DNA of 24,855 nt, taken from positions 1 to 24,855 of IMG/VR virus record IMGVR_UViG_3300008459_000361. The stretch is one strand, 5' to 3'. Below are positions 9,028 to 22,816 of the stretch, piece after piece. Position numbers and translations under genes: made by a program. The DNA comes from a virus. The notes below the pieces were generated by a model that ran no database searches, was not told the origin of the DNA, and worked only from the letters and a program-made list of their open reading frames with translations. How positions within the stretch are numbered: position 1 is the first letter of the stretch; each line of letters starts with the position of its first letter.

Positions 9028-9028
9028 T

Positions 9029-12326: not shown

Positions 12327-12400
12327 CCTCTTGTAGTTAAATGGTATAACAGTCGGCTGATAACCGGCCATTACAAGTTCGATTCTTGTCGAGAGGACCA
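12327..12400 (+). tRNA. tRNA-Ile(GAT)
   Basis: Acceptor cctcttg/cgagagg, D-arm gtt..aac, anticodon arm gtcgg-CTGATAA-ccggc, T-arm acaag-ttcgatt-cttgt, A73, CCA encoded. It decodes ATT/ATC. Confidence 0.95.
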
Positions 12401-12407
12401 AGTTTAT

Positions 12408-12485
12408 GTAGGAGTGGCCGAGTGGTCCAAGGCAACTGATTGCAAACCAGTAAAACCGCCAGTTCAAATCTGGCCTCCTACTCCA
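12408..12485 (+). tRNA. tRNA-Cys(GCA)
   Basis: Acceptor gtaggag/ctcctac, D-arm gccgag..ggc, anticodon loop TTGCAAA with an A-C mismatch at the loop-closing pair 31-39, T-arm gccag-ttcaaat-ctggc, discriminator T (usual for Cys), CCA encoded. Confidence 0.93.
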
Positions 12486-12490
12486 GTTTA

Positions 12491-12565
12491 GGTCTCAAAG
12501 TGTTCATGGACGCACACAAGCCTGTCACGCTTGAAGAAGGGGATCGTTACCCCTTGGGACCGCCA
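12491..12565 (+). tRNA. tRNA-Asp(GTC) with unusual T-loop
   Basis: Acceptor ggtctca/tgggacc, D-stem gtg/cac, anticodon arm caagc-CTGTCAC-gcttg (GTC), discriminator G (Asp identity), CCA. The T-stem AGGGG/CCCCT closes a loop ATCGTTA instead of TTCGANN, so the T54-A58 pair is replaced by A54-T58. A second, normal Asp(GTC) lies at 12879. Confidence 0.85.
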
Positions 12566-12573
12566 AGTTTTAT

Positions 12574-12648
12574 TCCACAGTAGCACAGCGGTAGTGCAGT
12601 TGGCTGTTAACCAATTGGTCGTAGGTTCGATCCCTGCCTGTGGAGCCA
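12574..12648 (+). tRNA. tRNA-Asn(GTT)
   Basis: Acceptor tccacag/ctgtgga, anticodon loop CTGTTAA in a TTGG/CCAA stem, T-arm gtagg-ttcgatc-cctgc, discriminator G, CCA encoded. Confidence 0.95.
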
Positions 12649-12653
12649 ATTTT

Positions 12654-12728
12654 GCCCTTTTATCCTTAATGGTAGAGGTCCTGTTTTGTAATCAGGGTGT
12701 GTGGGTTCGATTCCTGCAAAGGGCACCA
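12654..12728 (+). tRNA. tRNA-Thr(TGT)
   Basis: Acceptor gcccttt/aaagggc, anticodon arm cctgt-TTTGTAA-tcagg (TGT, one T-T mismatch at the loop end), T-loop TTCGATT, A73, CCA. Followed after 5 nt by element E2. Confidence 0.93.
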
Positions 12729-12733
12729 GTTTT

Positions 12734-12789
12734 AGGATACTTTCAGCAAACTCAAATCTTTTCAATGGATGAAAAAAGCGTATCCTGTT
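12734..12789 (+). ncRNA. E2: tRNA-like spacer element
   Basis: Closing stem AGGATAC (12734-12740) / GTATCCT (12780-12786), then GTT. D-like hairpin TTT-CAGC-AAA as in E1. The central hairpin is CTTTTCA-ATGGA-TGAAAAAG (one bulge), without a canonical 7-nt anticodon loop. It lies between tRNA-Thr and tRNA-Glu. Compared with E1 the closing stem differs at paired positions (TGT/ACA to TAC/GTA) and stays complementary. Confidence 0.5.
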
Positions 12790-12797
12790 ATTTTTAT

Positions 12798-12874
12798 ACT
12801 TCGTTCGTCTACTTGGTTTAGGACACTAGACTTTCAATCTGGAAAAACGGGTTCGAATCCCGTACGAAGTACCA
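12798..12874 (+). tRNA. tRNA-Glu(TTC)
   Basis: Acceptor acttcgt/acgaagt, anticodon arm ctaga-CTTTCAA-tctgg, T-arm acggg-ttcgaat-cccgt, A73, CCA. One of two Glu(TTC) genes (the other at 14913), which differ in acceptor and discriminator. Confidence 0.93.
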
Positions 12875-12878
12875 ATAT

Positions 12879-12954
12879 GCCGTTGTAGTCCTCTGGGTAG
12901 GGCACCTGATTGTCTATCAGATTTAGGCGGGTTCGATTCCCGTCGGCGGCGCCA
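12879..12954 (+). tRNA. tRNA-Asp(GTC), canonical copy
   Basis: Acceptor gccgttg/cggcggc, D-stem gtcc/gggc, anticodon loop TTGTCTA (GTC), T-arm gcggg-ttcgatt-cccgt, discriminator G, CCA. Confidence 0.93.
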
Positions 12955-12957
12955 AGT

Positions 12958-13170
12958 TTTGTAAGTGTCAGCAAGAGAATGTCATGCTGTCTAGGTTTCT
13001 TCGAAGGACCGAAACAGTAGAAGGTGATGGGTTCAACTCCCAACCACTCGGAAGGGTGGTGTCTGTAACGGAGACAAACTGGACTAGTATCTCAAGTGAC
13101 GTACCGAGTCCCGGCCGGCTTAATTACACGGGTGAATGGTGTCAATAACGATGGTGATACTACTTACAAA
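12958..13170 (+). ncRNA. Long structured spacer RNA between tRNA-Asp and tRNA-Ala (candidate)
   Basis: TTTGTAAGT (12958-12966), 4 nt after the Asp CCA, pairs exactly with ACTTACAAA (13162-13170), 9 nt before the Ala tRNA. The 195 nt inside contain several local stems: CAGCA/TGCTG, GTTTC/GAAAC, TGGG-TTCAACT-CCCA, ACCAC/GTGGT and GTCT/AGAC. Just inside the 5' strand is TCAGCAA, the word conserved in the E elements. No credible open reading frame and no tRNA with CCA was found. Confidence 0.45.
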
Positions 13171-13179
13171 TTCAATATG

Positions 13180-13253
13180 GGGGGAGCCGAGGGCGGCGGC
13201 GTTGCCTTGCAAGCATCGTGACTACAAGGGTTCGATACCCTGGTCCTCCACCA
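13180..13253 (+). tRNA. tRNA-Ala(TGC), divergent
   Basis: Six of seven acceptor pairs (gggggag/gtcctcc), anticodon loop CTTGCAA (TGC) on a stem with one mismatch, T-loop TTCGATA, A73, CCA. The D-arm is reduced (gcc-gagggc-ggc) and GC-rich. A canonical Ala(TGC) lies at 13403, so this copy may be free to drift. Confidence 0.75.
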
Positions 13254-13259
13254 AATTTT

Positions 13260-13334
13260 GCCCCTGTCGTTCAATGGACAGGATACTACGCTACGAACGT
13301 GGGGATGGAGGTTCGATTCCTTCCGGGGGCACCA
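13260..13334 (+). tRNA. tRNA-Arg(ACG)
   Basis: Acceptor gcccctg/cgggggc, anticodon arm ctacg-CTACGAA-cgtgg. ACG is normally edited to ICG to read CGN. T-arm ggagg-ttcgatt-ccttc, A73, CCA whose last A begins the next spacer helix. Confidence 0.94.
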
Positions 13335-13402
13335 ATTAAAAAACATTCTAAAGACGTATAACGCAATGCCCTTTGACGGCTAGAATAGAGTGTTTCTTAA
13401 TT
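13334..13402 (+). ncRNA. Long-helix spacer element between tRNA-Arg and tRNA-Ala
   Basis: 13334-13350 pairs with 13386-13402: 17 positions with one A-C mismatch and one G-U. The helix uses the terminal A of the preceding CCA and ends immediately before the first base of tRNA-Ala (13403). The 35-nt interior can form GCC-CTTTGAC-GGC (13369-13381) and a small CGT/ACG hairpin. Confidence 0.5.
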
Positions 13403-13477
13403 GGGGGATTCATATACTGGGTATTATGCCTGCCTTGCACGTAGGTCAAAAGAGTTCGATTCTCTTATCCTCCACCA
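13403..13477 (+). tRNA. tRNA-Ala(TGC), canonical copy
   Basis: Acceptor gggggat/atcctcc, anticodon arm cctgc-CTTGCAC-gtagg, T-arm aagag-ttcgatt-ctctt, A73, CCA. Confidence 0.93.
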
Positions 13478-13483
13478 ATTTAT

Positions 13484-13558
13484 GGCTCTTTAGTGTTAAC
13501 GGCAGCACGACAGTCTCCAAAACTGCTAGTGGGAGTTCGAATCTCTCAGGGGTCGCCA
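13484..13558 (+). tRNA. tRNA-Trp(CCA)
   Basis: Acceptor ggctctt/aggggtc with several G-T pairs, anticodon loop CTCCAAA (CCA) on CAGT/ACTG, T-arm gggag-ttcgaat-ctctc, discriminator G, CCA encoded. Followed after 5 nt by element E3. Confidence 0.94.
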
Positions 13559-13563
13559 AGTTT

Positions 13564-13627
13564 AGGTTGCGTTCAGCAAACTTTATACATTTGACTTTTA
13601 ATCAAAACCGTAAAAAAGCAACCTGTT
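13564..13627 (+). ncRNA. E3: T-armless tRNA-like spacer element
   Basis: Closing stem AGGTTGC (13564-13570) / GCAACCT (13618-13624). D-like hairpin GTT-CAGCA-AAC. Anticodon-like arm TTTGA-CTTTTAA-TCAAA (loop C-T-TTT-A-A, Lys-like). An 11-nt A-rich segment replaces the variable loop and T-arm. It ends G-TT without CCA. Nearly identical to E4 except in the anticodon-like triplet. Confidence 0.6.
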
Positions 13628-13635
13628 ATTTTTGT

Positions 13636-13709
13636 TCCTCCATGGTGTAATGGTAACACAACGGGCTTTGAACTCGTTATCCTTGGTTCGATTCCAAGTG
13701 GGGGTGCCA
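13636..13709 (+). tRNA. tRNA-Gln(TTG)
   Basis: Acceptor tcctcca/tgggggt with an unpaired 1-72 (T-T), compatible with the weak first pair of Gln tRNAs. Anticodon arm acggg-CTTTGAA-ctcgt, T-arm cttgg-ttcgatt-ccaag, discriminator G, CCA. Confidence 0.92.
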
Positions 13710-13717
13710 TGGTTTAT

Positions 13718-13796
13718 CTGTGTGTAATGTCAGCCAGGTCAGACGGCTCGCCTTGGAAGTGAGAGGTCGCAAGTTCGAATCTTGCCACACAGACCA
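13718..13796 (+). tRNA. tRNA-Pro(TGG)
   Basis: Acceptor ctgtgtg/cacacag, D-stem gtc/gac with a long loop, anticodon arm ctcgc-CTTGGAA-gtgag, T-arm gcaag-ttcgaat-cttgc, A73, CCA. A second Pro(TGG) is at 19523. Confidence 0.93.
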
Positions 13797-13808
13797 TTAG
13801 TTTTATGT

Positions 13809-13886
13809 GCGGCGGTAGCGCAATTGGTAGGAGGCAACAGTCTTAAACTCTGTACAGTGTGGGTTCGAATCCCATCCGCCGTACCA
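13809..13886 (+). tRNA. tRNA-Leu(TAA) with short variable loop
   Basis: Acceptor gcggcgg/ccgccgt, anticodon loop CTTAAAC (TAA) on ACAG/CTGT, T-arm gtggg-ttcgaat-cccat, A73 (Leu identity), CCA. The variable loop is only about 5 nt, whereas bacterial Leu tRNAs are class II. The D-stem is poor (two pairs). Confidence 0.85.
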
Positions 13887-13889
13887 CAT

Positions 13890-13966
13890 GCCCTTGTGGT
13901 GGAATTGGTAGACACGCATCGTTGAGGTCGATGTATCTGTAGGTTCGAGTCCTATCAAGGGTACCA
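13890..13966 (+). tRNA. tRNA-Leu(GAG) with short variable loop
   Basis: Acceptor gcccttg/caagggt, Leu-type D-arm gtggaattggtagacac, anticodon arm catcg-TTGAGGT-cgatg (GAG), T-arm gtagg-ttcgagt-cctat, A73, CCA. The variable loop is 5 nt (tatct), although the D-arm is leucine-like. Confidence 0.9.
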
Positions 13967-13978
13967 AATAGTTTCTAT

Positions 13979-14054
13979 GGTGTTAGTAGTGTAGTGGTCT
14001 GCACCTCGCTCTGTGAAAGCGATAGTATGGGATCGTTCCCCATCTAGCACCCCA
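13979..14054 (+). tRNA. tRNA-His(GTG) with unusual T-loop
   Basis: Eight-pair acceptor including G-1 (13979) with C73, the His identity pair. Anticodon arm tcgct-CTGTGAA-agcga. T-stem ATGGG/CCCAT closes ATCGTTC instead of TTCGANN, the same change as in Asp 12491. CCA encoded. Confidence 0.9.
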
Positions 14055-14063
14055 AAAAAATTT

Positions 14064-14139
14064 GCCGCTTTAGCTGATGTGGTCATAGCACCGGTTTGAA
14101 GCACCGAGGAAAGAGGTTCGATCCCTCTAGGCGGCACCA
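14064..14139 (+). tRNA. tRNA-Phe(GAA)
   Basis: Acceptor gccgctt/aggcggc, D-stem gct/agc, anticodon loop TTGAAGC (GAA) on CGGT/ACCG, T-arm agagg-ttcgatc-cctct, A73, CCA. Followed after 5 nt by element E4. Confidence 0.92.
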
Positions 14140-14144
14140 AGTTT

Positions 14145-14210
14145 AGGTTGCGTTCAGCAAACTTTTATACATTTGACTTCTAATCAAAACCGTAAAAAAA
14201 GCAACCTGTT
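14145..14210 (+). ncRNA. E4: T-armless tRNA-like spacer element
   Basis: Closing stem AGGTTGC (14145-14151) / GCAACCT (14201-14207). D-like GTT-CAGCA-AAC. Anticodon-like arm TTTGA-CTTCTAA-TCAAA (loop C-T-TCT-A-A, Arg-like). A-rich 12-nt replacement of the T-arm, then G-TT. It is a near copy of E3 with T-to-C in the triplet and one-base indels in A/T runs. It precedes a protein gene rather than a tRNA. Confidence 0.6.
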
Positions 14211-14232
14211 AAATGTTTAAAAGGAGTATAAC

Positions 14233-14493
14233 ATGAATCGATATAAAAATTTATTTCGTATAAAGCGTTTGCTCCTGGGCAAAGTAGAACACGAAATAAC
14301 TGTTCGCAACATTAACGGCAACTACCACTGCCGGGTGTTTACAAATGGCGAATTGAATCAAGAGGCAGTTTGTTTGAGTAAGAGTGACATAGGTTACACT
14401 TGCCGCAATCTGTTGCGTTGGGAAGACAAGTGTGGCAACATTAGCGAATTTGCTAGTGCGGCTCGAGCACGACAAAATACAGCATATATTTAA
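14233..14493 (+). CDS. Small hypothetical protein embedded in the tRNA array
   Basis: 86 residues, basic, with four Cys (near 33, 47, 57 and 67) that are not in obvious CxxC pairs. HEITVRNINGNYHCRVFTNGE suggests a beta-rich start and the C-terminal half is helical and Arg-rich. AAAAGGAG lies 8 nt upstream of the ATG, so translation is expected. It is not a known RNA-processing enzyme by inspection. It is preceded by E4 and followed by a 7-codon reading frame with its own ribosome site. Confidence 0.75.
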   Translation: MNRYKNLFRIKRLLLGKVEHEITVRNINGNYHCRVFTNGELNQEAVCLSKSDIGYTCRNLLRWEDKCGNISEFASAARARQNTAYI

Positions 14494-14505
14494 AAGGAGA
14501 ATGAC

Positions 14506-14529
14506 ATGAAACGTTCAGGTAAACGTTAG
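14506..14529 (+). CDS. Seven-codon reading frame (MKRSGKR) with strong ribosome site
   Basis: AAAAGGAG lies 7 nt before ATG, and the frame ends at TAG after seven codons rich in Arg and Lys. A 9-bp hairpin (14529-14537 with 14557-14565) begins at the stop codon. The leader-peptide-plus-hairpin layout resembles an attenuator. It could equally be the remnant of a lost gene. Confidence 0.35.
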   Translation: MKRSGKR

Positions 14530-14565
14530 TGTCATCCTAGACCCCCGTATGGTCCTGGATGGCAC
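14529..14565 (+). promoter_or_regulatory. Hairpin after the seven-codon frame
   Basis: GTGTCATCC pairs with GGATGGCAC (one G-T), and inside it GACC/GGTC can pair. No T-run follows, so it is not a simple terminator. It starts at the stop codon of the mini reading frame, so a ribosome stalled there would prevent it from forming. Confidence 0.45.
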
Positions 14566-14592
14566 GTAAAAGAAAATCTATTACGAATCCAT

Positions 14593-14668
14593 CCACAGCT
14601 GGCGTTAACGGTAGCGTACTCGGCTCTTAACCGATGAGGTGTCAGTTCGAATCTGACGCTGTGGACCA
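14593..14668 (+). tRNA. tRNA-Lys(CTT)
   Basis: Acceptor ccacagc/gctgtgg, anticodon loop CTCTTAA (CTT) on TCGG/CCGA, T-arm gtcag-ttcgaat-ctgac, A73, CCA. Confidence 0.94.
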
Positions 14669-14671
14669 TAT

Positions 14672-14746
14672 GGGGGTATAATTCAACGGCTAGAATAGCT
14701 GGCTTTTAACCAGTCTATCAGGGTTCGATTCCCTGTGCCCCTACCA
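14672..14746 (+). tRNA. tRNA-Lys(TTT)
   Basis: Acceptor gggggta/tgcccct, anticodon arm CTGG-CTTTTAA-CCAG, T-arm caggg-ttcgatt-ccctg, A73. Its CCA can be drawn into the helix of the following spacer element. Confidence 0.95.
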
Positions 14747-14832
14747 TATGCAAACACATTACACTGACTGCTTCAACAGTCAGACATATTTGAAGATATG
14801 CCGGATATCCATGCGGGTAGTGTGTTTACATA
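14747..14832 (+). ncRNA. Four-way-junction spacer RNA with complementary hairpin loops
   Basis: 14747-14762 pairs with 14817-14832: 14 Watson-Crick pairs, one G-U and one C-A in 16 positions. The helix can extend into the Lys CCA on the left. Inside are CTGACTG-cttcaa-CAGTCAG (14764-14783), CATAT-ttgaag-ATATG (14785-14800) and CCG/CGG (14801-14816) over the palindrome GGATATCC. Loops CTTCAA (14771-14776) and TTGAAG (14790-14795) are exact reverse complements, so a six-base kissing interaction is possible. tRNA-Met starts 1 nt later. Confidence 0.65.
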
Positions 14833-14833
14833 T

Positions 14834-14909
14834 GGTGATGTAGCATAGCGGCTAATGCAGTTCCTTCATACGGAAAAGATCGTCGGTTCGAGTCCGACCA
14901 TCACTACCA
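14834..14909 (+). tRNA. tRNA-Met(CAT) or Ile2(CAT)
   Basis: Acceptor ggtgatg/catcact (first pair G-T), D-stem gcat/atgc, anticodon loop TTCATAC (CAT), T-arm gtcgg-ttcgagt-ccgac, A73, CCA. Whether C34 is modified to lysidine (Ile, ATA) cannot be read from the gene. Confidence 0.9.
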
Positions 14910-14912
14910 AAT

Positions 14913-14988
14913 GTCCCGTTCGTCTAGAGGCCTAGGACAGCAGCCTTTCACGTTGTCAACACCGGTTCGAATCCGGTACGGGACGCCA
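14913..14988 (+). tRNA. tRNA-Glu(TTC), second copy
   Basis: Acceptor gtcccgt/acgggac, anticodon loop CTTTCAC (TTC), T-arm accgg-ttcgaat-ccggt, discriminator G as in bacterial Glu tRNAs, CCA. Confidence 0.94.
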
Positions 14989-15004
14989 ACTTTAGGAGTA
15001 AATT

Positions 15005-15178
15005 ATGAAAACAGTTTTTTTTGAAAATGTCTTTAACAGAGAAAAATTTTATTGTAAAGATACTAAAGATATTCGTATAATTGACGGTATAGAATATCTA
15101 CGAGTTTTCAGAGATGGCACTCAACGAGATTGTCTAGTTAAGAAAGACAGCCTTAAAAAAGTACCTGAAAAGAAATAA
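15005..15178 (+). CDS. Small hypothetical protein (57 residues) in the tRNA array
   Basis: ATG follows TAGGAGTAAATT, a good ribosome site. The protein is charged and probably beta-rich (IRIIDGIEYLRVFRDGTQRDCLVKKDSL), like small phage proteins with an SH3-like or ubiquitin-like strand order, but no family was recognised. It sits between tRNA-Glu and tRNA-Val with only 1 nt before the latter. Confidence 0.65.
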   Translation: MKTVFFENVFNREKFYCKDTKDIRIIDGIEYLRVFRDGTQRDCLVKKDSLKKVPEKK

Positions 15179-15179
15179 C

Positions 15180-15253
15180 GCCTCGGTCGTCTAATGGAAG
15201 GGCCCTGTTTTTACACAGCAGAGATGGGAGTTCGATTCTCCAACGAGGTACCA
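15180..15253 (+). tRNA. tRNA-Val(TAC)
   Basis: Acceptor gcctcgg/acgaggt (six pairs plus a G-A), D-stem gtc/ggc, anticodon arm ctgtt-TTTACAC-agcag (TAC), T-loop TTCGATT, A73, CCA. Starts 1 nt after the stop of the 57-residue gene. Confidence 0.9.
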
Positions 15254-15457
15254 TACAGACCCCGGTTTACACTTTTACGTTATTAAAGTGCGCGATTGCT
15301 GTAAGCGATAACAGCACGGTGCATTGGATCTACCGCAAGGTTCTCTTTAGGAACGACTTGAGAAATCACAAAGGCGGGACGCTAACCCGTCTAAATGGAA
15401 AAATACGTGGACAGAGTAACAGCTCAGTCTAGGGCTCCTGTGGTGGGAGTAGCTAGA
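15254..15457 (+). other. Gene-free structured stretch within the array
   Basis: No convincing reading frame and no tRNA. Local stems are dense: CACTTT/AAAGTG, TGCTGT/ACAGCA, GTTC/GGAAC, CGGG-ACGCTAA-CCCG (anticodon-arm-like, but with C at position 33) and GTCTAG/CTAGAC enclosing CTCC/GGAG. This may be one or more structured RNAs or eroded tRNA genes. Confidence 0.4.
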
Positions 15458-15596
15458 CACTTTATAAAAGCTCTTTGAAGTTTAACTACACTTGAGAACA
15501 CGAGTTAGGTGCGAAGTCGACTACACACCGAAAGTGCAAGGAAGATACGGAGTTAGACAGTTTGGTTCGATTCCAACAGAGAGCCTCTATAAAGTG
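15458..15596 (+). ncRNA. tRNA-like RNA inside an extended helix, no CCA
   Basis: CACTTTATA (15458-15466) pairs with TATAAAGTG (15588-15596). After a 3x3 internal loop, GCTCTTT (15470-15476) pairs with AGAGAGC (15578-15584) like an acceptor stem. A D-like AAGT/ACTT hairpin (15478-15493) and a classic T-arm with loop TTCGATT (15561-15577) follow. The anticodon region is replaced by 67 nt containing GAGTTAG twice (15502, 15550). The 3' strand is followed by CTC, not CCA. Resembles a tRNA mimic (the YrlA Y-RNA class is one possibility) or an interrupted tRNA. Confidence 0.5.
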
Positions 15597-15601
15597 AATA
15601 T

Positions 15602-15679
15602 GCGGGTAGACAGGACAAGGGGCGTCCAGCAGCCTTCCAAGCTGAAGATCGCGGAGTTCGACTCTCCCTACCCGCTCCA
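15602..15679 (+). tRNA. tRNA-Gly(TCC)
   Basis: Acceptor gcgggta/tacccgc, D-stem gac/gtc, anticodon arm CAGC-CTTCCAA-GCTG, T-loop TTCGACT with four T-stem pairs, discriminator T, CCA. Confidence 0.92.
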
Positions 15680-15684
15680 ATCAT

Positions 15685-15775
15685 GGAGGGTTATCTGGGC
15701 TGGGCCCAGCACGGTCTTGAAAACCGATGGAGTTTGAAATACAGCTTGGAGTTCGATTCTACCATCCCTCCTCCA
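15685..15775 (+). tRNA. tRNA-Ser(TGA)
   Basis: Class II, 91 nt. Acceptor GGAGGG/CCCTCC with one extra unpaired position, D-arm CTGGG/CCCAG, anticodon arm acggt-CTTGAAA-accg (TGA), long variable arm, T-loop TTCGATT on a T-stem with two mismatches, CCA encoded. Confidence 0.85.
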
Positions 15776-15782
15776 AATTATT

Positions 15783-15874
15783 GCCAGCGAGACTTGGAAG
15801 TCAGAGAGGTCTTATAAGCCTTTTAGCGCCAGATTAGCGTTCTTGAGAGGGTTCGATCCCCTCCGCTGGTACCA
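15783..15874 (+). tRNA. Class II tRNA with apparent TAT anticodon (identity uncertain)
   Basis: Acceptor gccagcg/cgctggt, D-arm GACT-tgga-AGTC, anticodon loop CTTATAA on gaggt/gcctt, variable arm agcgc-cagatta-gcgtt, T-arm gaggg-ttcgatc-ccctc, A73, CCA. TAT would read ATA (Ile), but a long variable arm belongs to Leu, Ser or Tyr tRNAs, so the amino acid is unclear. Confidence 0.75.
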
Positions 15875-15905
15875 GTTAAGGGATAGACGATAGTTTAGAG
15901 TCCCA

Positions 15906-16020
15906 CCCAACCTAGCATAGTGGCTCAGCTATGTGACAGCACAAGAACGGTTAGGAGTGGTCTTTCATTGACTTGACTATTCGAGACAATCCAGTGAGTC
16001 CTCCCAGGAGGATAGTTGGG
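15906..16020 (+). ncRNA. Structured spacer RNA between the TAT tRNA and tRNA-Leu(TAG) (candidate)
   Basis: 15906-15914 pairs with 16013-16020 (eight pairs and a bulged C). Inside are CATAG-tggctcag-CTATG (15916-15933) and TCCTC/GAGGA (near 15999-16012), with weaker GTCT/AGAC pairing between them. No reading frame. It ends 14 nt before tRNA-Leu. Confidence 0.35.
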
Positions 16021-16034
16021 CTCCCGACCTTTAT

Positions 16035-16111
16035 GCCTTCGTACGCTAATTGGTAGTGCGGATAGTTTTAGAAACTGTTGGTTGGGGGTTCGAATCCGCC
16101 CGAAGGTACCA
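16035..16111 (+). tRNA. tRNA-Leu(TAG) with short variable loop
   Basis: Acceptor gccttcg/cgaaggt, D-stem CGC/GCG, anticodon arm atagt-TTTAGAA-actgt (TAG), 5-nt variable loop, T-loop TTCGAAT, A73, CCA. Its D-arm is identical to that of tRNA-Leu(CAA) at 16445, so the two are duplicates. A class II Leu(TAG) also exists at 17698. Confidence 0.9.
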
Positions 16112-16132
16112 AATTTTTAATAGGAGGATGCT

Positions 16133-16156
16133 ATGTCATCGCTAAACGCAATGTAA
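16133..16156 (+). CDS. Seven-codon reading frame (MSSLNAM) in front of the 89-residue gene
   Basis: TAGGAGG lies 6 nt before this ATG, the strongest ribosome site in the area, yet the frame ends after seven codons. The next gene starts 17 nt downstream in the -1 frame and has no ribosome site of its own, so translation may be coupled by termination-reinitiation, or a single-base sequence error separates them. Confidence 0.4.
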   Translation: MSSLNAM

Positions 16157-16173
16157 GTAAAAAGTTTCGTAAA

Positions 16174-16443
16174 ATGTCTGAAGTCTATAAAATATTTTCC
16201 CGTCAATGGAAACATGTGCTAGACTACAGTGAAGAGTCTCTAATTGAAATGTTCAACTATGAGTCACACGGAACTGACATAACAAACAGACAACGAAATG
16301 GATACTACGTTGGCAAGCAATGGCTTAACGTCCATATCGACATGTGGAAGGAAGACTTTGAAAAAGGTTATCTACGCAAACAAGAATTATACGATGATCC
16401 AACTTTTCCCAATTGGTGGTTGGACAGCGTGTTTAAGAAATAA
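16174..16443 (+). CDS. Hypothetical protein (89 residues) in the tRNA array
   Basis: Starts at ATG 16174 (MSEVYKIF). The open frame extends further upstream but has no in-frame ATG with a ribosome site. Acidic/aromatic, Trp-rich, helical protein (HVLDYSEESLIEMFNYESHG) with no recognised family. Translation probably depends on the seven-codon frame upstream. tRNA-Leu(CAA) begins 1 nt after the stop. Confidence 0.65.
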   Translation: MSEVYKIFSRQWKHVLDYSEESLIEMFNYESHGTDITNRQRNGYYVGKQWLNVHIDMWKEDFEKGYLRKQELYDDPTFPNWWLDSVFKK

Positions 16444-16444
16444 T

Positions 16445-16521
16445 GCCCCGTTACGCTAATTGGTAGTGCGGATTCTCTCAAAAAGAGTTGGTTGTAGGTT
16501 CAAATCTTACACGGGGTACCA
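16445..16521 (+). tRNA. tRNA-Leu(CAA) with short variable loop
   Basis: Acceptor gccccgt/acggggt, D-stem CGC/GCG, anticodon arm attct-CTCAAAA-agagt (CAA), 5-nt variable loop, T-loop TTCAAAT, A73, CCA. Paralogue of tRNA-Leu 16035. Confidence 0.92.
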
Positions 16522-16522
16522 G

Positions 16523-17092
16523 TTATTTTGTTTTGTTTCGCATAACACCCCTCTCGGCCATCCAGCGTCGAACATCTTCGACACTTTTTGCACCGTTTCT
16601 GCGATAATGGGTTCTTATAAATTTATAAATTTCAGCGCGAGTTAATTCTGGTTTTATATCATAGACGCTTAATCCAATTCTGAGTTTGCCTTTTTCTATG
16701 TTATTTACAGCATGGGGAATTGTAACATTTAATTTAACCCATTGTTTTTCTGGGACAACATAACTGTCAACAAGATTATCTTCACTATCGTAGAAATCGG
16801 TAGTAACATTTGATCCACCTGTTTCAAGATGATAATTGTAAGCAACGGTTCTATCAAGGTCCGTGTGTATATCTAGGTTACCGCTGATAACCCTAACGTC
16901 AACCTTGTGTGGAAAATCAAATATACTTGATACCCATTTTGAAATTATCGCTGTTGGATCATAAATTTTTATTTGTGGAGCATATTCTATTATAAAAGTA
17001 TTTGGTTGGGATCTAGCACATTCGTAAATTGCTTTTATTACTTCTTCCGGAGGATGAGGGAAATTTTCGTAAGTTAAATTAGGCGTTGGCAT
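16523..17092 (-). CDS. Putative 2OG-Fe(II) oxygenase, inverted within the array
   Basis: 189 residues from ATG 17092 (MPTPNLTYENF). A longer frame upstream is only the complement of tRNA-Arg and is not coding. The facial triad is visible: H76-T-D78, H127 (IPHAVNN) and R138 (KLRIGLSV) for 2-oxoglutarate, with the beta-strand pattern of Asp/Asn-hydroxylase-type oxygenases. Substrate unknown. It is the only minus-strand gene in the array, its stop is 1 nt from the end of tRNA-Leu(CAA), and no promoter is obvious upstream. It would be transcribed against the array. Confidence 0.7.
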   Translation of the reverse strand: MPTPNLTYENFPHPPEEVIKAIYECARSQPNTFIIEYAPQIKIYDPTAIISKWVSSIFDFPHKVDVRVISGNLDIHTDLDRTVAYNYHLETGGSNVTTDFYDSEDNLVDSYVVPEKQWVKLNVTIPHAVNNIEKGKLRIGLSVYDIKPELTRAEIYKFIRTHYRRNGAKSVEDVRRWMAERGVMRNKTK

Positions 17093-17116
17093 GCATTTAT
17101 TTACAAAATATATTTT

Positions 17117-17193
17117 ACCGCTATGGTCTAACTGGACAAGGCAACACTCTTCTAAAGTGTCCGATGGGGGTTCGAATCCCTCTGGCGGTACCA
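17117..17193 (+). tRNA. tRNA-Arg(TCT), second copy
   Basis: Acceptor accgcta/tggcggt, anticodon arm acact-CTTCTAA-agtgt, T-arm ggggg-ttcgaat-ccctc, A73, CCA. It duplicates the decoding of tRNA-Arg 775 but the body sequence is different. Confidence 0.94.
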
Positions 17194-17199
17194 AATAAA

Positions 17200-17275
17200 G
17201 CTGATATGGCACAGTAGGTAGCGCACCTCCTTGGTAAGGAGAAGGTCGCCAGTTCGATTCTGGCTATCAGCACCA
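17200..17275 (+). tRNA. tRNA-Thr(GGT)
   Basis: Acceptor gctgata/tatcagc, anticodon loop TTGGTAA (GGT), T-arm gccag-ttcgatt-ctggc, A73. The CCA is directly followed by a -35 box. Confidence 0.95.
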
Positions 17276-17304
17276 TTGACAAATGATTAAATTTAATATA
17301 CAAT
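17276..17304 (+). promoter_or_regulatory. Sigma70-type promoter for the rpoZ-like gene
   Basis: TTGACA at 17276-17281 immediately after a tRNA CCA, 17-nt spacer with TTAAAT, TACAAT at 17299-17304. It starts a transcript 5' of the omega-like gene and the following tRNAs. Confidence 0.85.
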
Positions 17305-17325
17305 CAATACATAGGAAAACAAATT

Positions 17326-17541
17326 ATGGCACGAATTACAAGCGAACTAGCAGTTTCAAAAATTGGTAATAGATACGACCTTGTATTGGTTGCATCCTTA
17401 CGTGTAAGAGAATTACGAAAAGGACATCTGCCCATGGCAAAAAAGAAAGGTGGAGGCGACATTGTCACTGCTCTTCGTGAAATTGAAGAAGGCAAGATTA
17501 ACGGAAAAGAATATCTAGAGAAATTGCGAAAGCATAAGTAA
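17326..17541 (+). CDS. rpoZ: RNA polymerase omega subunit-like protein
   Basis: 71 residues. MARITSELAVSKIGNRYDLVLVA at the N-terminus (seen in two parts: the MAR start and IGNRYDLVLVA, residues 13-23) and ALREIEEGKIN near 49-59 are the two conserved blocks of bacterial RpoZ. Host omega is usually 70-100 residues, so this is near full length, with the loop between blocks shortened. Omega binds the beta' subunit, helps assemble the core enzyme and forms part of the ppGpp site. A phage copy could replace host omega and alter ppGpp response or promoter choice. It has its own consensus promoter and AGGA upstream of the ATG. Confidence 0.9.
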   Translation: MARITSELAVSKIGNRYDLVLVASLRVRELRKGHLPMAKKKGGGDIVTALREIEEGKINGKEYLEKLRKHK

Positions 17542-17547
17542 GTTTAT

Positions 17548-17623
17548 AGCGGTGTATGGAAGTGGTCATCCGCTTGGTCTCATAAGCCAAGAATCGCTGG
17601 TTCGAATCCAGCCTCCGCAACCA
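17548..17623 (+). tRNA. tRNA-Met(CAT), possible initiator
   Basis: Acceptor agcggtg/ctccgca has a 1-72 mismatch (A-A), the hallmark of bacterial initiators, and T6-T67. Anticodon arm ttggt-CTCATAA-gccaa has two of the three G-C pairs typical of initiators. T-arm gctgg-ttcgaat-ccagc, A73, CCA. Initiator function is inferred. Confidence 0.88.
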
Positions 17624-17628
17624 GTTTT

Positions 17629-17692
17629 AGGTTAATTACAGCGATTAAAAAAATGGCTGTCTGCTAGGACGTTAAACTAGTATTAACCTGTT
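17629..17692 (+). ncRNA. E5: divergent member of the tRNA-like spacer family
   Basis: Closing stem AGGTTAA (17629-17635) / TTAACCT (17683-17689), then GTT, with the same CCA-GTTTT-AGG context as E1 and E2. It contains ACAGCGA where E1-E4 have TCAGCAA, and a CTAG/CTAG hairpin (17663-17679) in the anticodon position. The rest is not alignable. Confidence 0.45.
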
Positions 17693-17697
17693 GATTT

Positions 17698-17782
17698 GCC
17701 CCTTTGGCGTAATTGGTAGCCGCGCCAGATTTAGGTTCTGGTATCGAAAGGTGTGTGGGTTCGAGTCCCATGGGGGGCACCA
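17698..17782 (+). tRNA. tRNA-Leu(TAG), class II
   Basis: Acceptor gcccctt/ggggggc, anticodon arm ccaga-TTTAGGT-tctgg (TAG), 13-nt variable arm, T-arm gtggg-ttcgagt-cccat, A73, CCA. It is the only Leu tRNA here with a long variable arm. Confidence 0.95.
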
Positions 17783-17946
17783 TTAGTTGATAGCACTCGG
17801 CAGGTATCGTACATGGACGCATGTACTACTCGACATCCGCTGGCATGGCGCGAAGTCTAAAATAACTGTTGTTAGATGCTTTGGAACTGTTAGCGCAGGA
17901 CTCCTAAATAGACACGTTGTCATAGACGGCGAGTACTATCAACTAA
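17783..17946 (+). ncRNA. Long-helix spacer RNA between tRNA-Leu and tRNA-Ser
   Basis: 17783-17799, starting at the base after the Leu CCA, pairs with 17930-17946: 16 of 17 positions with one C-A mismatch. The 130-nt interior has a perfect hairpin GTACAT-ggacgc-ATGTAC (17810-17827), TCTAA/TTAGA and GAC/GTC near 17911-17921. A short open frame across it has no ribosome site and is disregarded. Confidence 0.6.
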
Positions 17947-17954
17947 TGGCATTT

Positions 17955-18044
17955 GGAGCGGTCCTATAATGGTATTAGAGCAGATTGCTAATCTGTCGCT
18001 CGGCGTAATCCGGGTTCTGAGTTCGAGTCTCAGTCGCTCCGCCA
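17955..18044 (+). tRNA. tRNA-Ser(GCT)
   Basis: Class II. Acceptor ggagcgg/tcgctcc, anticodon arm gcaga-TTGCTAA-tctgt, long variable arm, T-arm ctgag-ttcgagt-ctcag, discriminator G, CCA. Confidence 0.96.
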
Positions 18045-18059
18045 AACATAAAAAAATAT

Positions 18060-18767
18060 ATGAATCAAATTTCAATAGTAATCCCCACAATGTGGAAGTT
18101 TGCACCATTTATAAACTTTCTTAAAGATTTACTAGAGCACCCACTTGTCGGAGAAGTTATTATTATTAATAACGATATCGGTAGTACTCCCCAATCTGAA
18201 GTTCTTAAACATCCAAAGGTTAAATTAAAAGTTTTCCTTAACAATATTATTGTAAATGCTTCTTGGAATTTTGGAGTAGCTATTGCAGAAAATGAAAAGG
18301 TTTGTATACTTAACGACGACATTATCTTTGACCTACGGGTGTTTAATAGAGTTTCAGAGTTTCTTGAACCGGGTAAGTTTGTAGTCACAGTGCCAGAATC
18401 ACATCTAGTTGCAAGTGGTGGGCATATTGTACAAGGGCATATTCGTATCGAACCATATCATCGAGGAGTTGATATGTTTCATTTTGGTGCGATGATGTTC
18501 ATTTGTAAACAAGATTGGATTGATATTCCTGCAGGGTTGGATATGTTTTATGGGGATTATTGGGCATTCGAAACAATGCTTACACGATTCAATCAAAATT
18601 ATATTGTAAGAGATGTATTCTTTTGGACTGAGATTGAGACAACTTCTAGTACGTTTTCAAACAAGGAAGAAATTTATAATAAAGAAACGCAGATATATTC
18701 CGCGGCGTTGGAGTTATTCAACAAAAACTTTTCAAGAAAGACCATTGACAATCCGATCCAACAATAA
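18060..18767 (+). CDS. Glycosyltransferase family 2-like protein
   Basis: 235 residues. The N-terminal GT-A fold is clear: SIVIPTMWK (5-13), NASWNFGVAIAE (66-77, the N.G...A donor-binding segment) and LNDDI (84-88) with the Asp pair for metal. GGHIVQGHIRIE and YGDYWAFETM follow, the latter with the acidic residues expected at the catalytic base. It probably adds a sugar to a phage or host surface glycan, or to a modified base or protein. It starts 15 nt after tRNA-Ser. No strong ribosome site is visible, so it may be translated weakly. Confidence 0.8.
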   Translation: MNQISIVIPTMWKFAPFINFLKDLLEHPLVGEVIIINNDIGSTPQSEVLKHPKVKLKVFLNNIIVNASWNFGVAIAENEKVCILNDDIIFDLRVFNRVSEFLEPGKFVVTVPESHLVASGGHIVQGHIRIEPYHRGVDMFHFGAMMFICKQDWIDIPAGLDMFYGDYWAFETMLTRFNQNYIVRDVFFWTEIETTSSTFSNKEEIYNKETQIYSAALELFNKNFSRKTIDNPIQQ

Positions 18768-18791
18768 TTACAATTATACAAAGGACGGTAT

Positions 18792-18968
18792 ATGTTAAAA
18801 CCCACATCTAGTTATAAAATGACCAAACAGACTAAACGCAGTCTTGCACTTATTATTGATCCGCACAAGCGCGGTGTTCAAAAACGTATGATGATACAGG
18901 CAGAACTAGCAGGCGCAATTAAAGTTAAAGATCGTAAAAAACCTGACCCCGGAGCAACAAATGAGTAA
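18792..18968 (+). CDS. Small basic hypothetical protein (58 residues)
   Basis: AAAGGACGG lies just upstream of ATG 18792. The protein is rich in Lys and Arg (TKQTKRSLALIIDPHKRG) and could bind nucleic acid, though there is no recognised motif. Its stop lies inside the first codons of the next gene (ATGAGTAA), showing translational coupling. Confidence 0.7.
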   Translation: MLKPTSSYKMTKQTKRSLALIIDPHKRGVQKRMMIQAELAGAIKVKDRKKPDPGATNE

Positions 18969-19269
18969 GGGGTCAAGGCCGCGTCCATTTAGCATAAGTC
19001 AAGAAGAATTAGGCAATAGAATGGATTCTATATTTGGCAAGAAGCAGTTGCGTGAACAATATATTCCGCCGCCATTGCCTGTTGAATTTTATAAAGAAAA
19101 TAATATGACACCAAGTGTAAAATCAATGCAGAAAGGTACCTGCGGTTGTGGGCGCAGTCCAACAGGAAATTGTTGTGGTTGGCATGCCTTAACCGAAGAT
19201 CAATTTCTAGAACGTAAAGAATTATATGAAACTGGTAAGACTGACCTTGCTGGTAGAGAAGTTAAGTAA
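18961..19269 (+). CDS. Small Cys/His protein with CDGSH-like metal motif
   Basis: 102 residues. CGCGRSPTGNCCGWH (61-75) has the CxCxxS...C.G.H order of CDGSH-type iron-sulfur motifs, with C61, C63, C71 or C72 and H75 as candidate ligands. The usual Pro-x-Cys-Asp-Gly is altered, so the metal and any redox role are uncertain. The same short motif appears in small proteins of phages and proteobacteria. The N-terminal 50 residues are basic then Pro-rich. It overlaps the preceding gene by 8 nt. Confidence 0.75.
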   Translation: MSKGSRPRPFSISQEELGNRMDSIFGKKQLREQYIPPPLPVEFYKENNMTPSVKSMQKGTCGCGRSPTGNCCGWHALTEDQFLERKELYETGKTDLAGREVK

Positions 19270-19276
19270 AGAATTT

Positions 19277-19351
19277 GCCTGGATAGCTCAGGGGTAGAGC
19301 GTTTCCTTTACACGGAAAGGGTCCGCGGTTCGAAACCGTGTCCAGGTACCA
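19277..19351 (+). tRNA. tRNA-Val(TAC), second copy
   Basis: Acceptor gcctgga/tccaggt, anticodon arm tttcc-TTTACAC-ggaaa, T-arm cgcgg-ttcgaaa-ccgtg, A73, CCA. More canonical than the Val copy at 15180. Confidence 0.95.
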
Positions 19352-19366
19352 AGTTAAGGATACTGT

Positions 19367-19519
19367 ATGCCAATGTATGAAACAACTGTAAGAACGCCAC
19401 AGGGTGAAGAAAAGAAAAAAATCTATGCGGCAACACCGCAAGAAGCTAAAAAACTTTTCGAACAACTGTATGGTGGTCCTAGGGCAGTTCCATATATACC
19501 GCATGTAGTGCCAAGTTAA
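19367..19519 (+). CDS. Small hypothetical protein (50 residues)
   Basis: ATG 19367 with AAGGA 6 nt upstream (a second ATG two codons on is possible). The product has a beta-strand, helix (TPQEAKKLFEQLYG) pattern and a Pro-rich tail, resembling very small phage proteins of unknown role. It lies between two tRNAs. Confidence 0.65.
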   Translation: MPMYETTVRTPQGEEKKKIYAATPQEAKKLFEQLYGGPRAVPYIPHVVPS

Positions 19520-19522
19520 TTT

Positions 19523-19599
19523 CGGAGTATAGCACAGCCTGGTAGTGCGCTTGGTTTGGGACCATGAGGTCGCAGGTTCGATCCCTGCTACTCCGACCA
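19523..19599 (+). tRNA. tRNA-Pro(TGG), second copy
   Basis: Acceptor cggagta/tactccg, anticodon loop TTTGGGA (TGG), T-arm gcagg-ttcgatc-cctgc, A73, CCA. Confidence 0.95.
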
Positions 19600-19615
19600 A
19601 TTATAAAGTATCGTT

Positions 19616-20230
19616 ATGAGTCTATCATTAAACCCGTTAGTAACATCTAGAGTAACCTATTCATACACATGGTGGGATGGATTGATTCCTCCTGATATGC
19701 TTGAGAAGATAATTGAGTATTGCCAATCTAACGAATTATCTGAAGGTAAGGTTATTGGAAAGGCCGGGGAAGAGGAACTTCACGATTCTTTAAGGAAATC
19801 AAAAGTTTCAATAGTTCGTATTGATAGTGAAAATCGATGGATATTTGATATGCTTGCTCAAGTAGCCGACTACATGAATAAAACATTTTATAATTTTGAT
19901 CTTATAGGTTTCGATCACTTTCAATATACTGTTTATGATGATGATGGCGACAAATATGACTATCATGTTGACATGATGTTCGGCGATGAAAGTGTAGACG
20001 TAACGCCTATTCCGAGGAAACTTTCTTTGAGTATTTGTCTTAATGACCCATCTGATTATGAAGGTGGTGAATTACAATTTTTTGTAGGTGGTAAAAATGA
20101 TCAAACTGCTACACAGGCAAAAGGCAGGGTAATAGCATTTCCGTCATACGTACTACACAGAGTTACTCCAGTTACTAAAGGTACAAGAAAATCTATAGTA
20201 ATTTGGGTGTTAGGGAATAAATTTAAATGA
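19616..20230 (+). CDS. 2OG-Fe(II) oxygenase, PKHD/prolyl-hydroxylase type
   Basis: 204 residues, single double-stranded beta-helix domain. Iron ligands H117-V-D119 (DYHVDM) and H181 (VLHRV), and 2-oxoglutarate Arg R191, with LSLSICLNDPSDYEGGEL between them as in PKHD-type hydroxylases. Such enzymes are frequent in marine myoviruses and may hydroxylate a protein or small molecule. The start codon follows tRNA-Pro by 16 nt and the stop overlaps the next oxygenase start (ATGA), so the two are translated together. Confidence 0.92.
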   Translation: MSLSLNPLVTSRVTYSYTWWDGLIPPDMLEKIIEYCQSNELSEGKVIGKAGEEELHDSLRKSKVSIVRIDSENRWIFDMLAQVADYMNKTFYNFDLIGFDHFQYTVYDDDGDKYDYHVDMMFGDESVDVTPIPRKLSLSICLNDPSDYEGGELQFFVGGKNDQTATQAKGRVIAFPSYVLHRVTPVTKGTRKSIVIWVLGNKFK

Positions 20231-20826
20231 TAGACAACATTGGTTACAAAGTAATACCAGGCCTAATAACAAAAGACGCCGCCCTCTTAACAGCATCTAA
20301 TCTAGAGATCTTAAGAATTATTACTCATATGTCTAACAACGTTCCGTTAAATTCTACTACGGCATTTAACGATTCTCAGGTCACGCAATCGTTTGCTTGG
20401 TATAGTTCTTATGCTACTGAGTCATTATTATTATACCTTCGACCAGAGATTGAGAAAATAGTAGGAAAAAATCTATGGCCTACATATTCTTACGCTCGTA
20501 TATATTGGCCAGGGGCCGAAATGGCTGAACATCAAGATAGAGCAAGTTGCGAATACTCTGTAACAATTACACTAGAAGACGATGGCGAGGAAGAATGGCC
20601 GATTTGGTTCCGACACGATGATGGTAAAACTGTTCCTCTAATTCTTAAAGAAGGAGACGGGTGTGTTTACGAAGGGTGTGTAAGACCACATTGGAGAGAA
20701 CCATACAAGGGAAAACGCCAAACACAGGCCTTCCTACATTATGTAGATGCAGACGGACCATATGCTGATTTTAAATTTGACAAAAGACAATTTGTCGGAT
20801 TACCAAAGGCTAATAATGAAAGATAA
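20227..20826 (+). CDS. 2OG-Fe(II) oxygenase-like protein
   Basis: 199 residues. H102-Q-D104 (EHQDRASCEYS), distal H155 (RPHWRE) and R164 (GKRQTQAFLHYV) form a 2OG-Fe(II) facial triad and cosubstrate Arg. GDGCVYEG before the distal His is typical of phage members. It is divergent from the oxygenase upstream, so it is not a recent duplicate. It overlaps the neighbours at both ends (ATGA with the first; its last codons contain the start of the deaminase). Confidence 0.85.
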   Translation: MIDNIGYKVIPGLITKDAALLTASNLEILRIITHMSNNVPLNSTTAFNDSQVTQSFAWYSSYATESLLLYLRPEIEKIVGKNLWPTYSYARIYWPGAEMAEHQDRASCEYSVTITLEDDGEEEWPIWFRHDDGKTVPLILKEGDGCVYEGCVRPHWREPYKGKRQTQAFLHYVDADGPYADFKFDKRQFVGLPKANNER

Positions 20827-21265
20827 ATTTATTCATTTATACATGGATTGGGCGGAACGAACAGCACAATTGAGTCATGCTCGTAGACTACAAGTTGGAG
20901 CGGTTATTGTTAAAGATGATACAGTCATTAGCTACGGGTACAATGGCATGCCGGCAGGTTGGGATAATAATTGCGAGGATGAAATAGTTGTTGCAGTAAT
21001 TGACGGAGTGCCACAGCGAGAAATTAAAGAACTCAAAACTAAACCAGAAGTGTTACACGCCGAATCCAATGCGATTGCAAAACTAGCTCGATCTCAGAAT
21101 AGCGGACTAGGTGCTACCCTGTTTGTTACTCATGCACCGTGTTTAGACTGTGCTAAACTTATCTACCAAAGCGGTATTAGACACGTTTTATATAGGAACA
21201 CTTATCGGGATACCAATGGCCTAGAATTTTTATCCAAATCAAATGTAGAAGTAAATAAAGTATAA
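20816..21265 (+). CDS. dCMP deaminase
   Basis: 149 residues from ATG 20816 inside the end of the previous gene. Zinc site: H81-A-E83 (VLHAESNAIAK) and P108-C109-x-x-C112. GYNGMPAGWDNNCEDE (41-56) is the substrate-loop segment typical of phage and bacterial dCMP deaminases. It converts dCMP to dUMP for thymidylate synthesis during phage replication. No thymidylate synthase is in the window. Confidence 0.93.
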   Translation: MKDKFIHLYMDWAERTAQLSHARRLQVGAVIVKDDTVISYGYNGMPAGWDNNCEDEIVVAVIDGVPQREIKELKTKPEVLHAESNAIAKLARSQNSGLGATLFVTHAPCLDCAKLIYQSGIRHVLYRNTYRDTNGLEFLSKSNVEVNKV

Positions 21266-21268
21266 TGC

Positions 21269-21343
21269 GCGGGCATGGTGCTAGTGGTAACACATAACTT
21301 TGCCAAAGTTAAGTTACGGGTTCGATTCCCGTTGCCCGCTCCA
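21269..21343 (+). tRNA. tRNA-Gly(GCC)
   Basis: Acceptor gcgggca/tgcccgc, anticodon arm taact-TTGCCAA-agtta, T-arm acggg-ttcgatt-cccgt, discriminator T, CCA. It lies alone inside the operon, 3 nt after the deaminase stop. Confidence 0.96.
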
Positions 21344-21357
21344 ACTTTAAAGGTTAT

Positions 21358-21777
21358 ATGGATAAAATTAAAAAAGCGTTTTGGTTTACACTAGGTATGA
21401 TTTGCCTGGGCATAGCCTATATTGGAATAGTAACACCTGGCATTCCTTGGAGCACACCTACTGTAGGTGCCGCATTTTGTTTTGCTAAAAGCAGTGACCG
21501 TTGGCATAACTGGATTATGAATCACAAGTTGTTTGGACCATTTCTACGTAACTGGGGAGAAAAACGTGTTTTCCCTACATACGGTAAATGGGCCATGATT
21601 ATTACTATGGATATCAGTTTAATTGTCCTTTGGTTTACTACTGGAAACTGGAAACTGGTTGCAGGAGTAGGACTAGGTATGTTATTATGTGCAGTATGGG
21701 CGTTACGCTATCCTAGCAGTATACAAGAATACGATCGCCGTAAACAAGCTGGAGAAAAAATAGGATGGTTCAAATAA
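21358..21777 (+). CDS. YbaN-like (DUF454) inner-membrane protein
   Basis: 139 residues. GIVTPGIPWSTPTVGAAFCFAKSSDRWHNWIMNH (in parts) matches the G.V.P.LPTTPF...AAFCFA.SS...H.W...H block of DUF454/YbaN proteins, followed by FGPFLRNWGE. Three predicted membrane spans (about 8-30, 78-95, 98-115). Function of the family is not established. AAAGG precedes the ATG, and the stop overlaps the next gene by 13 nt. Confidence 0.85.
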   Translation: MDKIKKAFWFTLGMICLGIAYIGIVTPGIPWSTPTVGAAFCFAKSSDRWHNWIMNHKLFGPFLRNWGEKRVFPTYGKWAMIITMDISLIVLWFTTGNWKLVAGVGLGMLLCAVWALRYPSSIQEYDRRKQAGEKIGWFK

Positions 21778-21953
21778 CTTTACCAAAAGAAGGTAGTAAA
21801 TGGGGTGGCAATGATAGAGATATTTTCTATGTCATGCACACTATCGAACTTGAAGGCCACACCTGGATTCACTATAAAAAACTAGATACTGAACAGGAAT
21901 ACAGTTGTTATGTAGAAAGTTTCCTTCAACGCTTTCGAGAGTTACCAGAATGA
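21765..21953 (+). CDS. Small hypothetical protein (62 residues), DUF1653-like pattern
   Basis: Starts inside the end of the YbaN-like gene. The pattern (GSKW..., FYVMHTIELEGHTWIHYKKLDTEQEYSC, ESFLQRF) suggests a small beta-barrel followed by a helix, as in DUF1653-type proteins. The resemblance is by pattern only. Its stop overlaps the ATG of the cupin gene (ATGA). Confidence 0.75.
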   Translation: MVQITLPKEGSKWGGNDRDIFYVMHTIELEGHTWIHYKKLDTEQEYSCYVESFLQRFRELPE

Positions 21954-22309
21954 CAAGATTACAAGGCCAAGTAGAGAAAGGTTGGGGCTCAGAATTAATT
22001 TGGGTTACTAATGACAAATACTGTAGTAAGTTTTTAAACTTTAATCAAGGTGCAAAATTCAGTATGCACTTCCATCGCGAGAAGGAAGAAACATGGTATG
22101 TCATGAGCGGCAAATTTGAAATTGAAGTAATTGATACAAAGAACGCTGAAATACATAAGAAGATTATCGGTGTAGGTAGTGTACATCATAATGACCCATT
22201 AGTACCACATCGAATTACATGTTTGGAAGAAGGAACAATTATTGAAGTTTCTACTCCAGACAGCGTCGAAGACAACTATCGTGTGGGTAAAGGCGACAGT
22301 CAAAAATGA
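21950..22309 (+). CDS. Cupin, mannose-6-phosphate isomerase-like
   Basis: 119 residues, a single cupin barrel. Metal ligands are probably H40, H42 and E46 or E47 (M-H-F-H-REKEETWYV) and H87 (VPHRI). KGWGSELIW (10-18) and the EVSTPD tail match the C-terminal cupin of bifunctional mannose-6-phosphate isomerase/guanylyltransferase and its stand-alone relatives. A role in sugar-nucleotide supply would fit the cytidylyltransferase-like gene just downstream. It is coupled by ATGA to both neighbours. Confidence 0.82.
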   Translation: MTRLQGQVEKGWGSELIWVTNDKYCSKFLNFNQGAKFSMHFHREKEETWYVMSGKFEIEVIDTKNAEIHKKIIGVGSVHHNDPLVPHRITCLEEGTIIEVSTPDSVEDNYRVGKGDSQK

Positions 22310-22795: not shown

Positions 22796-22816
22796 ATATT
22801 AAGAAAGGAAAGAACT

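Follow-up and report, generated by a model that had tools for sequence, protein, structure and literature searches.

Phages alter host RNA polymerase (RNAP) with added small proteins. Among these, the sigma and anti-sigma factors, T4 AsiA and Alc, Xp10 P7 and T7 Gp2 are unrelated inhibitors or specificity factors, and are not homologues of core subunits. Omega is the smallest RNAP subunit and contributes one of the enzyme's two ppGpp sites. Deleting omega affects E. coli only modestly. Nucleocytoplasmic large DNA viruses (NCLDVs) are eukaryotic viruses that carry whole RNA polymerases.

The window analyzed here is a phage fragment of 24,855 nucleotides. In an earlier note, which was made from the letters of this DNA alone, an open reading frame was read as a phage-encoded omega subunit with its own consensus promoter. 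The features around this gene are as follows (loci are those of the family described below).

12327-22759, plus strand: tRNA array holding the omega gene (ARAGORN and Rfam)
17200-17275, plus strand: tRNA-Thr(GGT), 50 bases upstream of omega
17276-17304, plus strand: credible sigma70-type promoter for omega, TTGACA-N17-TACAAT with an A+T-rich discriminator (conserved hexamers, 17-base spacing)
17312-17318, plus strand: likely ribosome-binding site, AGGAAAA, before the omega ATG (reading of the sequence)
17326-17541, plus strand: phage omega (RpoZ-like) gene, 71 amino acids, ATG start (profiles and fold)
17548-17623, plus strand: tRNA-Met(CAT), starting 6 bases past the omega stop codon
18961-19269, plus strand: small Cys/His protein, CGCGRSPTGNCCGWH, found at 13 of 48 loci, no Pfam match
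22775-23353, plus strand: dual-specificity-phosphatase-like protein (HCVAGVCRSG), with PF00782 below its cut-off
23804-24406, plus strand: metallophosphoesterase, an array neighbor at 23 of 48 loci

The 71-amino-acid translation of the open reading frame at 17326-17541 (plus strand) is MARITSELAVSKIGNRYDLVLVASLRVRELRKGHLPMAKKKGGGDIVTALREIEEGKINGKEYLEKLRKHK. It matched Pfam PF01192 with 46.9 bits, above the cut-off of 26 (E-value 2.7e-12), and the NCBIfam rpoZ equivalog TIGR00690 with 43.1 bits (cut-off 23.6). The identity to enteric omega was approximately 51% across 61 amino acids, and the alignment with E. coli omega spans residues 1-61. Only a weak match was obtained in PHROGs (phrog_25312, E-value 0.2). 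An AlphaFold2 model built from 44 family members (pLDDT 85, pTM 0.72) was aligned with E. coli omega chains over most of its length at Z-scores of approximately 9-10.8. The omega chains of solved RNA polymerases that matched the model (Z up to 10.8) include that of 4jk1, a ppGpp-bound holoenzyme. Furthermore, an independent viral contig (L001) encodes an identical protein, and dozens of viral contigs encode relatives at 46-75% identity, which excludes a chance match. Thus, the open reading frame encodes a true omega with the RpoZ/Rpb6 fold, and the first reading of the gene was correct.

ARAGORN found 35 tRNAs in the window. All are on the plus strand, and one of them (775-849) lies outside the array. 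The Rfam tRNA-Sec model matched positions 15685-15771 (plus strand) with 50 bits. Since the anticodon reads TGA by eye, this gene is most likely a tRNA-Ser(TGA) that was missed by ARAGORN, rather than a tRNA-Sec. The window thus contains approximately 36 tRNA genes. Beside the array, a run of minus-strand genes at 1518-10497 resembles, by eye, a surface-sugar synthesis region with epimerases, a thiamine-diphosphate enzyme, a NeuB-like synthase and a DegT-like aminotransferase.

The omega promoter adjoins the CCA end of tRNA-Thr and scores 11/12 against the consensus, a score equalled by 1.5% of the 90-base segments of the window. Upstream of omega in four near relatives (L002, L003, L004 and L007), a 12/12 promoter was found, and L016 has an 11/12 promoter; the spacing is 17 bases in each. 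In these five relatives, the spacers have diverged and the hexamers are near-perfect. This conservation makes the promoter claimed for the window omega credible. A promoter unique to omega was rejected, because the array holds several, with 3-10 near-consensus promoters per locus. Across 13 loci, 72 promoters scoring 11-12/12 lie on the omega strand versus 7 on the opposite strand. In the L021, L027 and L034 clades, omega begins 13-27 bases after a tRNA and no good promoter was found. In clades such as these, omega is probably cotranscribed with the tRNAs.

When 2.9 million viral contigs were scanned, 79 loci that encode omega relatives were identified; they reduce to 48 clusters at 90% identity. 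Each of the 16 large records searched whole contained exactly one omega, and the terminase of the searched family was found in six of the 16 (127-354 kb). tRNAs accompany omega in 45 of the 48 clusters; they are all on the omega strand, often with gaps of less than 60 bases. No tRNA was found in the available DNA of L042, L051 and L077, and the tRNAs of L069 and L079 are few and distant. Omega is located within the tRNA span, or directly next to it, in six large records. This span occupies 2-5% of five of these records and 37% of the sixth, and the product of the fractions is 2e-8 for spans that were picked after inspection of the data. As further observations on the arrays, tmRNA genes occur in or near those of L055, L063, L066 and L070, and ARAGORN reports a tRNA-Pyl with the anticodon CTA, a possible amber suppressor, at L069:7235-7310 in an omega-bearing viral contig.

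Several protein genes recur near phage omega. A phosphatase similar to dual-specificity phosphatases is present at 23 of 48 loci, a protein with the motif CGCGRSPTGNCxGWH at 13, a DUF2828/DUF7788 protein with a VWA-like region at 12 (for example, L030:2425-3843), a PpiC-type rotamase at nine and an AAA_33 kinase at eight. The omega neighborhood therefore looks like a region for tRNA supply and for RNA and translation upkeep. RNA repair in jumbo phages has been discussed previously (PMC7824862). Two resemblances were noted among these proteins: the CGCGRSPTGNCxGWH motif, carried by the 18961-19269 protein of the window and at 12 other loci, recalls CDGSH iron-sulfur proteins, and the DUF2828/DUF7788 protein near omega and the tRNA arrays is perhaps Ro60/TROVE-like.

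RSH-type HD alarmone hydrolases (HDxxEDT) were found within approximately 8 kb of omega in eight of the 48 clusters (for example, L008:12503-13093 and L071:16223-16669, with six further loci). The closest structure to the L071-type hydrolase is the solved (p)ppApp hydrolase 7smg. Phages in general often carry hydrolases similar to the RSH type (248 records). A ppGpp hydrolase as a constant partner of omega was rejected, since it is present at these eight loci only.

The phages were also searched for partners in transcription. The beta' domain PF00623 was not detected in 15 omega-bearing phage records, and a phage polymerase that omega could join was therefore rejected. Sigma70_r4 gave no match in 12 omega-bearing records, which argues against a phage sigma partner of that kind, although sigma factors without the domain could escape such a search. 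From these results, the host enzyme would be the one that phage omega works with.

To see which residues are kept, 45 phage omegas were compared with 101 proteobacterial omegas. R26, R28, A50 and E53 are invariant in the phage omegas, and L51 is also kept. The region of R26-x-R28 and A50-L-R-E53 presumably contacts beta'. A2, R3 and T5 are mostly kept (R3 in 37 of 45), and all three are present in the window omega, whose N-terminus is MARIT. R3 is lost in approximately eight divergent phage omegas, such as L063, L065 and L069-L072 (L070 included). Thus, the residues for beta' and ppGpp contact, on which the earlier note had made its reading depend, are present in the window protein (R26, R28, A50, E53, A2, R3 and T5).

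Other positions are changed. V6, which is near-invariant in the 101 cellular omegas, is replaced by S in 41 of the 45 phage omegas. D8 and K45, both invariant in the cellular set, are replaced in the phage omegas, and only a few phages keep K at position 45. The window omega has S6 and L8 (MARITSEL) and no K45 (KKKGGGDIV). Furthermore, Q29 is replaced by E in all 45 phage omegas, and Y63 is gained in 40 of them. The window omega carries the whole signature of the phage clade, namely S6, E29, Y63 and a same-strand tRNA array. It does not have the marks of a cellular rpoZ orthologue: V6, D8 and K45 are changed, and gmk and spoT are not its neighbors.

Residues 2-5 of omega coordinate the ppGpp phosphates, and RNAP containing an omega that lacks them loses binding (PMC7676912). 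Since A2, R3 and T5 are kept, the data for the window copy do not support a simple loss of ppGpp binding, nor the desensitization to ppGpp as first suggested. The window copy may be retuned, because V6, D8 and K45 are changed. As approximately eight phage omegas lack R3, the family as a whole does not require ppGpp binding.

The origin of the gene was analyzed with trees of approximately 80 columns, with very sparse sampling outside the Pseudomonadota. In a tree of 99 proteins, a branch (support 99/94) separated the phage omegas from the rest, and they joined the Burkholderiales omegas (99/78). In a tree with 34 betaproteobacterial omegas, the phage clade (SH-aLRT 99) branched among the betaproteobacterial sequences, beside those of the Comamonadaceae type (93). 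The comparison with host RpoZ proposed in the earlier note thus gave a single phage clade next to the Burkholderiales omegas. The middle loop of the window omega, which had been singled out as shortened, is one residue shorter than that of E. coli and has the usual Burkholderiales length. Short loop and G-x-E-x-L tail are both Burkholderiales traits. The argument from the loop therefore fails, because its length was inherited from betaproteobacteria. Apparently, the phage omega was taken from a betaproteobacterial-type host once and long ago. The tree position and the Burkholderiales traits also make a Burkholderiales-like host likely. The dN/dS values were approximately 0.05-0.2 in close pairs where both rates could be computed; the phage omegas are under purifying selection.

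As a whole explanation, we propose that these proteins are a phage-altered omega family that serves as a subunit of host RNAP and as the transcription arm of a module for tRNA supply and translation upkeep; we regard this as an evenly balanced proposition. Judging from the sequences, large phages with omega probably remodel a portion of the host's transcription apparatus. In the proposed mechanism, the phage omega gene would be transcribed by the host sigma70 RNAP, and the product would bind host beta', either as a substitute for host omega or together with it. The resulting phage-modified RNAP would be stable and would still have ppGpp site 1, and the changed surface at V6, D8 and K45 possibly alters its behavior. 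This enzyme would keep transcribing the near-consensus promoters of the array while host rRNA and tRNA promoters shut down. The module would thereby sustain tRNA supply and translation at late stages of infection or when the host is starved. Promoters with A+T-rich discriminators escape inhibition by ppGpp, to which host rRNA and tRNA promoters are subject. Since the array promoters with such discriminators would tolerate ppGpp, a ppGpp-competent enzyme could favor the phage. Three observations run counter to this explanation. The RSH-type hydrolases at eight loci would lower the alarmone rather than use it, R3 is lost in approximately eight phage omegas, and a few family members (L042, L051, L069 and L079) lack nearby tRNAs or lie at a distance from them. 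More tentatively, a lineage of large phages may remodel host RNAP through a homologous omega that has evolved near the ppGpp site, and may so couple transcription and the alarmone response to the phage tRNAs. If this is true, omega replacement is a route of host takeover distinct from the sigma, anti-sigma and phage-polymerase strategies.

The main rival is that phage omega merely supplements host omega, folding and stabilizing beta' to keep RNAP active through a long infection, with no specific part in ppGpp control. Omega is a known folding chaperone of beta' (PMC5811629), the core motifs are invariant in the phage family, and the gene persists in several phages whose copy has lost R3. Such a role leaves the phage-specific replacement of the near-invariant V6, D8 and K45 unexplained. 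Moreover, host omega in E. coli is reportedly fairly constant, and only a small fraction of RNAP is without it (PMC7676912). We consider this account doubtful, and it is the strongest of the competitors to the phage-altered host subunit.

The second rival is that phage omega replaces host omega, weakens site 1 and thereby blunts the stringent response to tRNA shortage during infection. It would fit with the replacement of V6 and D8, which adjoin the ppGpp-contacting residues 2-5, in nearly all phage omegas, with the R3-lacking copies and with the alarmone hydrolases near omega at eight of 48 loci. The retention of A2, R3 and T5 in the window copy, and of R3 in most of the family, weighs against it, and the DksA-dependent site 2 would remain. 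Blunting of this kind is unlikely.

A phage copy might also free the infection from a host rpoZ mutation or from a defense that senses or targets host omega. In M. abscessus, an rpoZ frameshift gave resistance to the phage Muddy (PMC8092298); the authors of that report suggest a cell-surface change as the cause, and no omega-targeting defense system was met in this analysis. We regard this explanation as very improbable.

Contamination by host DNA is common in phage records. In a collection of 50,697 phage records, the strong omega matches were bacterial by their neighbors (gmk, pilus genes, spoT) where examined, and the remaining strong matches had scores identical to enteric chromosomal records. 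The record named Campylobacter phage A11a carries E. coli gmk-rpoZ-spoT, MT839270 carries rpoZ-spoT, and another examined record carries Acinetobacter gmk-rpoZ-spoT. The public "phage" records L204 (MG065691.1) and L205 (MT839270.1), with bacterial gmk-rpoZ-spoT or rpoZ-spoT, are thus host contamination. Even though the examined GenBank matches have bacterial genes beside rpoZ, contamination, or passive carriage of a host gene captured recently, is hardly credible for the window omega and was rejected, since a tRNA array takes the place of gmk and spoT, its relatives stand in tRNA and phage contexts on 79 viral contigs (with a terminase in six of those tested), and the phage omegas form a separate clade with low dN/dS. 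A paper on phage omega was not found in a literature search outside most subscription journals. The rarity assumed in the earlier note agrees with both searches: omega is a known protein, but no paper on its phage-only branch was found.

The closest known protein is the Burkholderiales omega (67-68 amino acids). It shares with phage omega the Pfam and NCBIfam family, the length class, the loop length, a similar C-terminal G-x-E-x-L-x-K tail and A2-R3-x-T5, and it is nearest in the trees. In contrast to it, the phage copy lies in a tRNA array instead of gmk-rpoZ-spoT, has S in place of V6 and E in place of Q29, has lost D8 and K45, and has gained Y63. UniProt has at least two entries from uncultured Caudovirales phages, A0A6J5T227 and A0A6J7WH19, that likely belong to the family; they were the best viral matches by structure, with TM-scores of 0.84 and 0.69 and identities of 42% and 36%. 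Both are automatic entries under the generic name "DNA-directed RNA polymerase", and no study of either was found. Rpb6 of NCLDVs is a virus-encoded member of the Rpb6/omega superfamily and matches phage omega weakly; unlike the setting of that Rpb6, omega phages show no detectable beta'. The jumbo phages PA5oct, MIJ3 and Paride have the nearest cultured terminases (55-56% identity) to two omega records (354 and 338 kb), and omega was not found in the three phages by tblastn. Paride needs (p)ppGpp in dormant hosts (PMC10761892), a parallel for the omega phages that is suggestive only.

Phage omega would act on host RNAP, as do sigma and anti-sigma factors, T4 AsiA and Alc, Xp10 P7 and T7 Gp2. 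Because omega forms one of the ppGpp sites, the copies that keep R3 and those that have lost it provide a natural set for judging whether this site matters in infection. The occurrence of a genuine core subunit as a conserved phage family, maintained by selection and placed among tRNA genes, suggests that part of the enzyme itself is exchanged by large phages.
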